NCBI RefSeq assembly: GCF_030186535.1
Contig: NZ_JASNVW010000001.1
Span: 310,001 to 374,000, forward strand
Reading direction: 5' to 3'
DNA length: 64,000 bases
From: Ignisphaera cupida
Lineage (GTDB): Archaea > Thermoproteota > Thermoprotei_A > Sulfolobales > Ignisphaeraceae
Part shown: positions 11,425-13,713 of the stretch, piece after piece
Position numbering within the stretch: the stretch's first letter is position 1
How the letters are laid out: each line of letters starts with the position of its first letter
Position numbers and translations under genes: made by a program
Notes under the pieces: model-generated
The model's input: only the letters and a program-made list of their open reading frames with translations
Databases searched by the model: none
What the model was told of the DNA's origin: nothing

Positions 11425-12084
11425 TTGATTAAAGGAGTTGTTTTTGACTTGGATGGGACTCTTGTTGATAGTGTTGAAATTCATGTTTCTGCATGGCTAG
11501 AAGCCTGCAAAGCTATGGGCTTAGTTAAAGATGATGTGGAGGAAATGAATATGGAGAATCTTATTAGAAAACTAGTTGGGTTAGCACCAATTGATATTGC
11601 ATACAAAATTGTTAGCAACTCTGAATTGGCTAAAAAGCTTGCTGAAACCAAGCAAAGAATATATCTAACAAAAATTGAAAGAGTAAAGCTTTTTCCAAAT
11701 GTTGAAAAATCTCTTGAAACTCTTAAGAAAATGGACATGAAAATAGCTATAGCATCATCAGTTTCAAGCAATATAATAAAAAGGATTTTGGAGTTAAACA
11801 ACATAGCGAATTATATAGATGCTTACGTGGGAAGCGATGAAGTTTCAAAAAGAAAGCCAGAACCGGACATATTCCTAAAAGCACTAGAAAAAATAAGTGT
11901 TAAACCAAGCGAAGCTGTAATAGTTGGAGACACAGAATACGATATCATACCAGCAAACAAAATAAATGCTATATCAATACAAATATGCTGGAAACAATGC
12001 CTAGAAACCAATACAAAACCAAATTTCTATGCAAAAAACATAGAGGAAGTAATAGAAATAATTAAAAAACTCATTAATAAATAG
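11425..12084 (+). CDS. HAD-superfamily hydrolase, beta-phosphoglucomutase/phosphatase-like
   Basis: 219 aa from TTG 11425, with AGGTG twelve bases upstream. Motif I is D-L-D-G-T (nucleophile Asp8, acid/base Asp10), motif II Ser111 (I-A-S-S), motif III Lys144 (R-K-P-E-P) and motif IV G-D-T-E-Y-D (168-173). The helical cap inserted after motif I places it with subfamily I beta-PGM and phosphoglycolate/sugar phosphatases. Likely dephosphorylates or isomerises a small sugar phosphate; the exact substrate cannot be read from sequence. Confidence 0.88.
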   Translation: MIKGVVFDLDGTLVDSVEIHVSAWLEACKAMGLVKDDVEEMNMENLIRKLVGLAPIDIAYKIVSNSELAKKLAETKQRIYLTKIERVKLFPNVEKSLETLKKMDMKIAIASSVSSNIIKRILELNNIANYIDAYVGSDEVSKRKPEPDIFLKALEKISVKPSEAVIVGDTEYDIIPANKINAISIQICWKQCLETNTKPNFYAKNIEEVIEIIKKLINK

Positions 12085-12190
12085 AACATCAAATTAATAC
12101 CATATTTAACACAAATAATTCTAACAATCAATCTAGCCAATATATTTTAAATCAACTATTTAGACAAAGACTAGAAAATTAAATGGTCTT

Positions 12191-12340
12191 GCCCCTCGGT
12201 GCTGTAACCAAAGACAAAAAGCCATGCATCGGAATCTGAGCATCCAGCACAACCCCCAGGGCTTATCCCCTGAGGGCGTGCTAGATACCCAGATTCCGAT
12301 GCATGGCTTTTTGTCTTTGGTTACAGCACCGAGGTTTGGC
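12191..12340. repeat. Fold-back element: 45-bp perfect inverted repeat around a structured centre
   Basis: The left arm 12194-12238 and right arm 12290-12334 are exact reverse complements over 45 bases. An outer GCC (12191-12193) can pair with GGC (12338-12340) past a T bulge. Inside, AGCAC (12246-12250) pairs with GTGCT (12278-12282), and CAGGG (12257-12261) with CCCTG (12268-12272) around a short loop. The element is clearly more GC-rich than its surroundings. It has no ORF of its own. Candidates: a non-autonomous transposable (MITE-like) element, or a structured RNA. No second copy is visible in this window. Confidence 0.9.
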
Positions 12341-12409
12341 ACCAAATATATATTGTTCTTGGTGGATTATATATGGCTTCTCACAAATAATACCTCTATT
12401 GTATTTTCA

Positions 12410-12457: not shown

Positions 12458-12475
12458 GTATTACTAAGGTAATAC
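12458..12475 (+). terminator. Hairpin with 3' T-run
   Basis: GTATTAC / GTAATAC form a perfect 7-bp stem with loop TAAG, followed directly by TTTTTATAT. This looks like an intrinsic terminator, unusual for archaea where T-runs alone normally suffice; an operator next to a TATA-like sequence is the alternative. Confidence 0.35.
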
Positions 12476-12597: not shown

Positions 12598-13017
12598 TTG
12601 GAATCCAAAATCTATGTCGCTAATGAGAATTGGCTTATTGAATTGGTTGCGTCGAGGTTTAGAGAAGCTGGTTTTAGTGTCTATAAAAATATTGTTGTTT
12701 GTGATGTTGAGTTTGATATTCTTGCATTTGAGTATATTCAAAATGGTATCTATGTTCATATTGTTGAGGTTAAGAGGAGACCTAGTGATAAAATCTATAG
12801 GCAGCTTTCTAAACGATTGAAAATTGCTGATTATCTCTATGTTGCAATTCCATATGAGTTTTATTCATGGGCTTTGAAAAGAATTGATCCAAGAATTGGA
12901 ATATTATTGGTAGCTGGAGATGATGTTGTTGTATTTAGAAAACCTAGGTATCTTGGCAATGGATTTTTAATAGCGAACAATATGTGCAATATGGTTTTAA
13001 GATCTGATTCTAGATAA
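12598..13017 (+). CDS. PD-(D/E)XK nuclease-like protein
   Basis: 139 aa from TTG 12598; an in-frame TAA at 12565 limits the start and no ATG is available nearby. A conserved-looking Glu in the first helix (E15) is followed by V-E-F-D-I-L-A (Asp40) and H-I-V-E-V-K-R (Glu57, Lys59), the metal-binding D...ExK arrangement of the restriction-endonuclease fold (archaeal Hjc/Mrr-like small nucleases). A C-terminal strand-rich part may help dimerise. No methylase or helicase is adjacent, so it is a stand-alone nuclease-like protein of unknown role. Confidence 0.6.
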   Translation: MESKIYVANENWLIELVASRFREAGFSVYKNIVVCDVEFDILAFEYIQNGIYVHIVEVKRRPSDKIYRQLSKRLKIADYLYVAIPYEFYSWALKRIDPRIGILLVAGDDVVVFRKPRYLGNGFLIANNMCNMVLRSDSR

Positions 13018-13041: not shown

Positions 13042-13713
13042 TTAGCTGAGAGTTCTTCCCCCACCCCATATCATATTAAAGTATTTAAGCAATTTTTCAA
13101 CAACTTCAGAGCAGTTTGTCTCTATGGAAACTTCGTGATTTAGTGTTAAAGCGCTTTCAGTCCAGTTATGGCTTCCTATAACAGCAGTTTTATTATCGAC
13201 TATAACTATTTTTGCATGTGTTGTTTTTCCGCTTGATTCATCCAGTTTCACATTTATTTTATTGTTTATTAAATAGCTTATTGTTTCTGGGTAATCCTTG
13301 TATGTAACATCATCAACAATGATTTTCACATCAATTCCTTCTTTGTTTTTCAAAACAATTGTATTTAGAAGTGTATTTACAGGGTCTCCAGACTCTTTAG
13401 GATCATATTTCATGGCATACATAATTATGTAAATACTCTTGTTAGCATTTTGAAGCAAAGTCGAAACAGTTTTGAGATACTCTTTATCGAGTAAAACAAT
13501 TAATTTACAACCTGTTTGTTGTGCACTAGCTGCGTATTGTGTGTAGGTAGTTACAACACTTTTTGTTAATGTTATTAACTTGGTGGTTGTTTGCATTTGA
13601 GTAGTTGTAGCAATTTTTTCTCTGCTTTGCTGACTAGGCATCGACACTAAATAGGCTATGGCAAAGCCTAGCAATAAACCAATGAGAAATATGGTTAGAG
13701 GTTTTAGATTCAC
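13042..13713 (-). CDS. Membrane-anchored or secreted PLD-superfamily protein (single HKD, nuclease-like)
   Basis: 223 aa from GTG 13713. An N-terminal signal/anchor helix (~5-23) and a Thr-rich stalk precede one phospholipase-D domain. The HKD motif is H166-x-K168-x4-D173, followed by G-S-H-N-W-T (180-185). A single HKD with G-S-x-N is typical of Nuc-type endonucleases, which act as dimers; a phosphodiesterase on lipids is possible. The anchor places the domain outside the cell, where it could degrade DNA or other phosphodiesters for nutrients or defence (inference). Confidence 0.8.
   Translation of the reverse strand: MNLKPLTIFLIGLLLGFAIAYLVSMPSQQSREKIATTTQMQTTTKLITLTKSVVTTYTQYAASAQQTGCKLIVLLDKEYLKTVSTLLQNANKSIYIIMYAMKYDPKESGDPVNTLLNTIVLKNKEGIDVKIIVDDVTYKDYPETISYLINNKINVKLDESSGKTTHAKIVIVDNKTAVIGSHNWTESALTLNHEVSIETNCSEVVEKLLKYFNMIWGGGRTLS

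Follow-up and report, generated by a model that had tools for sequence, protein, structure and literature searches.

Archaeal EndA acts on a bulge-helix-bulge (BHB) motif, in which a 4-bp helix is flanked by two 3-nt bulges on opposite strands, and the TACK-type enzyme tolerates relaxed forms of this motif (PMC7714728). Outside tRNA introns, circles made by EndA have been described for pre-rRNA and, in Haloferax, for an intron in a 5' UTR (PMC7714728). Thermoproteus has an SRP RNA that is likewise circularised through EndA (PMC4731332), and circular forms of omega RNA are reported from archaea (PMC12558985). The locus analysed here resembles several described systems. It has the 4-bp helix, the two 3-nt bulges and the EndA and RtcB genes in common with the BHB-processed circular RNAs of archaea (tRNA introns, pre-rRNA circles, the HVO_1309 5'-UTR intron and Thermoproteus SRP RNA). 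With the type III toxin-antitoxin systems (ToxIN and CptIN) it shares a small, expected nuclease and a structured RNA that are apparently co-regulated, and with the OMEGA systems (TnpB or IscB with omega RNA) a nuclease gene adjoining a structured non-coding RNA. Its protein resembles the UPF0102/YraN, Hjc, SPO1766 (3dnx), XisH and NucS families in the PD-(D/E)XK fold and in the E-x-D and E-x-K motifs.

The locus lies in a 64,000-nt stretch of the Ignisphaera cupida genome, hereafter the window, whose positions are used throughout. The original prediction described a perfect 45-bp inverted repeat, and the arms at 12194-12238 and 12290-12334 are indeed exact reverse complements, in a structure far beyond chance. 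The element is also, as had been stated, GC-rich within an AT-rich gap, with a HAD phosphatase gene on one side (11425-12084, plus strand) and a PD-(D/E)XK-like gene on the other (12598-13017, plus strand), and the claim that it contains no ORF holds in substance, the only ORFs crossing it being mechanical ones of 61 and 82 aa. A repeat finder extended the inverted repeat to 12194-12261 and 12267-12334 (68 nt, 88% complementary), and the stem is near-continuous over about 70 bp. The plus strand folded at -119.8 kcal/mol (z -17), and none of 200 shuffles was equally stable. The minus strand (156 nt) folds better, at -138.7 kcal/mol (z -20.6), with mismatches of the plus strand becoming G.U pairs; its structure is a single rod, some 70 pairs long, that ends in the loop GAUAAG. 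The other hairpins of the 64-kb window did not fall below -41 kcal/mol, and the fold-back is present once in the 1.74-Mb genome. With the BHB motif described below, the functional unit exceeds 12191-12340, to about 12344 on the right and about 12185 on the left, so that the putative RNA gene spans 12185-12344 on the minus strand, its 5' arm being the perfect repeat at 12290-12334 and its 3' arm that at 12194-12238.

A DNA search against 60 relatives returned one clearly shared stretch, the apical hairpin (12249-12277, minus strand; hexaloop at 12262-12267), in two genomes of the same genus (G005 and G006). Both contain a rod at the shared loop with arm sequences different from those of the window, and among the three rods 21 pairs are kept through two-sided changes. 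A covariance model built on these three sequences detected a further, more distant rod in another genus (G013); run over whole genomes it reached 4 genomes only, the others apparently being lost to its speed filters. The exact loop pattern gave one true relative (G006) among the genome contigs and a chance match on a rod-less Dehalococcoidia contig, and no rod accompanied the loop-motif matches elsewhere in the family, including those in G010, which lacks the nuclease. Because the rod adjoined a homologue of the 139-aa protein encoded at 12598-13017 in all of the first four genomes, this protein was used as bait. Homologues were present in 24 of 214 genomes of the order, and a profile search of 229 genomes of the class delimited a core nuclease family (E below 1e-38) in 21 genomes: 9 of the window's genus, including its own, 3 others of its family and 9 of a second family. 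Sampling 398 genomes from the phylum added no core members.

Sliding-window folding revealed a very stable rod adjoining the nuclease gene at 20 of the 21 core loci; in G009, a genome of the window's genus, it occupies C1:1437779-1437936 on the minus strand. At 17 unrelated control loci of the relatives, the best hairpins reached a stability of at most about 0.64 kcal/mol per nt (-0.64), compared with -0.87 to -0.91 in the window, and no comparable rod was found at 10 loci with distant homologues only (best -67.9 kcal/mol). A weaker hairpin of 57 pairs and -64.8 kcal/mol stands beside one distant nuclease homologue (G033, L073 1220-1376) and might be a diverged relative. The only core nuclease lacking a rod, on its 8.3-kb contig, is that of G011 (L082, contig 6); its branch in the nuclease tree is also the longest of all, so this genome may have lost the RNA, or the role of the protein may have changed. 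Each genome has one rod copy, a count to be read with several of the genomes being incomplete bins and with whole-genome searches for nuclease-less rods being of incomplete sensitivity. Matches to a BHB-end pattern away from the nuclease, the first version of which had a gap too narrow for most second-family genomes, yielded no comparable rod except the GC-rich L101 (-102 kcal/mol), which is not a continuous rod.

The arrangement of the two genes varies. At 11 loci, which belong to the Ignisphaera family, the rod is upstream of the nuclease gene and divergent from it. At 6 loci of the second family the two genes converge, with the rod located at the 3' end of the nuclease gene or overlapping it, and at 3 loci (L040, L044 and L048) the rod is upstream on the nuclease strand. 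Gene neighbourhoods also differ between genome groups, and no family other than the nuclease occurs in more than 9 of the 21 stretches, compared with 20 for the nuclease. A gene for a PLD-like protein whose N-terminus has a hydrophobic segment comes after the nuclease gene in just three related genomes (window 13042-13713, minus strand; L003 30-731; L004 2301-3008). Since the rod and nuclease genes remain neighbours even where their order, orientation and surroundings have changed, a joint function is the best explanation we can offer, and on the comparative sequence data a link between the rod RNA and the nuclease gene appears almost certain.

A BHB motif was found at the base of all 20 rods, in the exact 3-4-3 form in 17 of them. 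The order is outer pairs, a 3' bulge of 3 nt (mostly AGA, AAA or AGG), a 4-bp helix, a 5' bulge of 3 nt (mostly AAA, AGC or AGA) and then the long stem. In the window, the 5' half (12335-12343, minus strand) consists of the outer GG (12343-12342), the helix strand UGCC (12341-12338) and the bulge AAA (12337-12335), and the 3' half (12185-12193, minus strand) of the helix strand GGCA (12193-12190), the bulge AGA (12189-12187) and the outer CC (12186-12185); this is the arrangement by which an EndA substrate is defined. Among the non-canonical forms, L038 and L042 fit another register with an irregular stem start, and the 3' bulge of L035 is irregular. The outermost pair of the BHB helix covaries (CG, UA, GC, GU and AU). 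We thus have little doubt that the base of the rod is a BHB motif. The host genome encodes both EndA (PF01974, E 2.4e-28) and RtcB (PF01139, E 4.1e-172), and from the basal motif it can be predicted that EndA should excise the rod and the ligase should circularise it. EndA cuts between nucleotides 2 and 3 of each bulge, which in the window would yield a circle running from 12335 to 12188 on the minus strand (148 nt); the predicted products of the other rods measure 97-160 nt. Across loci, A/T richness peaks at -31 to -27 before the BHB. In the window a TATA-like box, TATATAAT, lies at 12367-12374 (minus strand), about 25 nt before a transcript start that this peak would place near 12344, and the rod would then seemingly be the main product of its transcript. 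The predicted transcription start, excision and circularity are, taken together, likely.

Such an RNA gene with BHB excision could also exist without the RNA working in a complex with the protein, if it were only a substrate or cis-regulator of the nuclease gene, for example one that the nuclease cuts to tune expression. The constant adjacency of the rod, its position just upstream on the same strand in L040, L044 and L048 and its antisense overlap with the nuclease gene 3' end in the convergent genomes would all suit this explanation. However, the three layouts rule out one common cis mechanism, and a leader mechanism cannot be general, since the divergent RNA of the Ignisphaera family does not form part of the mRNA; we consider such a role alone unlikely. 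The rod and nuclease might instead be a selfish, intron-like element in which the BHB provides harmless splicing and a homing-type nuclease moves the unit. Archaea are known to have BHB introns associated with homing nucleases, the surroundings of the module vary and some genomes are without it. Against such an element, the rod does not split any gene, the site has neither tRNA nor rRNA, the nuclease is encoded outside the rod and there is one copy per genome; moreover, flanking genes 5 and 6 are common to five Ignisphaera genomes, which indicates a stable position of the module there. This origin is improbable, slightly more so than cis-regulation. A tRNA or tRNA intron had been considered as a further identity, and no tRNA was found in the window.

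The conservation of the rods bears on whether they act as RNA or as DNA. Nineteen of the 20 rods are more stable on the BHB strand, with a mean difference of about 17 kcal/mol, the exception being L040, whose other strand folds better; at L041, L047 and L050 the difference is small and a wider folding window favours the other strand. The 20 rods contain 148 G.U pairs on the BHB strand and 66 on the other. With its filters off, the 3-rod model found all 20 rods in the collected loci and scored the BHB strand higher in each. Rods range from 45 to 72 pairs, and pairing is kept where arm sequence is not: each of the ten basal stem pairs takes up to six pair types with almost no mismatch (the pair counts do not use a plain MAFFT alignment of the full set, in which the arms are misaligned). 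In the close pair G006/G005, five pairs changed on both sides, all by transitions, two changed on one side, both to G.U, and none was broken. The apical loop is conserved within groups, in sequence and on the same strand. When the loops of L041, L043, L045-L047 and L050 were set against those of the Ignisphaera rods, most convergent loci had the GGUAACC or GGUGACC types and most Ignisphaera rods the GGGU..UAAAGCCC type. The type of loop seems to track the clade of the nuclease, a pattern that coevolution of the loop with the protein would produce. Rfam 15 gave no match above the gathering threshold, the sub-threshold ones being chance matches to long hairpins such as microRNA precursors.

These data speak against a DNA cruciform that is recognised by an adjacent Holliday-junction-resolvase-like nuclease and whose arms are kept identical by gene conversion. 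Such a cruciform would agree with the perfect arms in the window and with the protein's weak resemblance to nucleases of the resolvase and repair types. The strand bias in G.U pairs, the change by transitions through G.U, the asymmetric BHB conserved with covariation and the same-strand conservation of the loop sequence are contrary to it, and the G.U-directed pattern of change is not expected from gene conversion of palindrome arms; we regard the cruciform as highly improbable. The MITE-like element that had been offered as one of two options, or a recent inversion-duplication accident, either of which could leave perfect arms in an intergenic gap, can be dismissed with near certainty, since a repeat family requires several copies with shared terminal repeats and this fold-back has one copy, with arms common to no relative and with no match in phages, plasmids or one viral-contig scan, and since in other genera the arms have turned over yet remain paired. 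The other option, a structured RNA kept by selection, has stood: one copy per genome and compensatory changes in relatives, named beforehand among the signs of an RNA, were both found. That earlier reading did not include the minus-strand coding, the basal BHB motif, the link with the nuclease gene or the shared promoter box. The covariation and strand bias make a structured RNA under selection for pairing all but assured.

We then examined the promoters of the two genes. GTATTAC, on either strand, occurs at all 20 loci (L031-L050) in the 220 bp before the nuclease core, and at 19 of them in the 130 bp before the rod, against a background density of 0.12 per kb; at divergent loci the rod-side and nuclease-side counts overlap. 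The convergent genomes, where each gene has a promoter of its own, carry GTATTAC in both, although L043 has just a loose form on its rod side. The extended box, GGTATTACC, is nearly palindromic and forms a perfect dyad in the window (GTATTAC-TAAG-GTAATAC, 12458-12475) between the divergent RNA and nuclease genes. Most intergenic GGTATTACC-like copies in the 21 stretches belong to the module, and at L043, L047 and L050 the box occurs as tandem copies 8 bp apart. The sharing of one GGTATTACC-like box by both promoters can be held with good confidence, and it suggests joint control of the two genes by a single DNA-binding factor, possibly the nuclease. As the box follows the module through its neighbourhoods, the factor would most simply be encoded by the module, in which case the nuclease or its complex may bind the box.

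The partner gene (12598-13017, plus strand; TTG start assumed) encodes a 139-aa protein in which E38-x-D40, E57-x-K59 and Q69 are invariant among 18 members. Its AF2 structure has a pLDDT of 91 and matches PDB 3dnx best (E 9.3e-7), followed by XisH and, more weakly, NucS, so that fold and catalytic E/D...E-x-K residues place it in the PD-(D/E)XK superfamily. Its matches in Pfam and NCBIfam are below cut-off (UPF0102 at 14.7 bits, gathering cut-off 23.6), PADLOC reported nothing, and the phages, plasmids and viral contigs searched contained no relatives of the nuclease. With the catalytic residues kept, the protein is probably an active nuclease of an unnamed family. In the nuclease genes of L036, L041, L044, L046, L047 and L050, no ATG, GTG or TTG lies in frame upstream of the conserved core; an unusual start codon, a frameshift, an assembly error or other processing are possible.

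On balance, the data favour a module of RNA and nuclease, found in Ignisphaera and one other family, that is self-contained and co-regulated and whose circular rod binds the nuclease and either controls or equips it. A rod-shaped non-coding RNA would be transcribed from the minus strand and cut out by EndA at the basal BHB, and RtcB would join its ends to give a dumbbell-like circle of about 148 nt. Circular rods are resistant to exonucleases and well suited to growth near 90 C. Contact with the PD-(D/E)XK protein would be made by the conserved apical loop of the circle, and the long helix would act as a scaffold defined by shape and not by sequence. Since the ends and the pairing are conserved, length is moderately variable and arm sequence is not conserved, recognition would probably be by loop and helix shape; for binding itself we put the chances at about even. 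The bound rod might restrain the nuclease, like an RNA antitoxin, or equip it for nucleic-acid work. These data agree equally with a toxic nuclease that the rod inhibits and with an active one that it scaffolds, and in either case the rod is most likely a stable partner. The RNA is unlikely to act as a guide, as nearly all of it is paired with itself and its arms had no matches in the phage, plasmid and viral collections searched. One factor at the GGTATTACC-like box, perhaps the nuclease itself, would co-regulate both genes. More tentatively, the module could represent a new class of archaeal RNP, in which a closed circular rod is the dedicated inhibitor, cofactor or sensor of a PD-(D/E)XK nuclease under one operator, possibly bound by the complex, and possibly with a role in defence. 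If this is correct, the locus would encode a circular RNA with the circle as its apparent end product, generated by the tRNA-splicing machinery and provided with a dedicated nuclease partner; it would offer a handle on the roles of circular RNAs in archaea and an RNA-protein system beyond the type III toxin-antitoxin and OMEGA designs. The rod RNA, with conserved shape and turned-over sequence, also illustrates how such RNAs escape sequence searches. The module is directly testable in a cultured organism.

BHB processing is already known, as are nuclease-RNA pairs in other designs, and the biogenesis, if confirmed, is of a known kind. A literature search, which covered few subscription papers and no preprints, found no published description of the rod RNA. 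In contrast to the BHB-processed circles described so far, the RNA here is a stand-alone gene with no tRNA, rRNA or SRP sequence and belongs to no Rfam family, the rod is seemingly the product, and one nuclease gene is attached. Unlike type III toxin-antitoxin systems, the module has no tandem-repeat RNA in a toxin-gene leader and contains just one rod, which at 17 of 20 loci diverges from the nuclease gene or converges with it; EndA-type processing is predicted for this RNA, and the protein has a PD-(D/E)XK fold, from which the ToxN fold differs. OMEGA and IS200-IS605 systems are set apart by the 139-aa PD-(D/E)XK-like partner, which has no RuvC or HNH domain, and by the lack of transposon ends and of a free guide. 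The window protein falls below the family cut-offs of UPF0102/YraN, Hjc, SPO1766, XisH and NucS, and we know of no RNA partner for any of these families. As the defining features of type III and OMEGA systems that we looked for are missing, Rfam has no such family and no description was found, the rod RNA and its nuclease, as a system, fit no known kind. These comparisons, with an undescribed RNA beside the nuclease gene in 20 of 21 genomes, point to a new RNA-protein system.
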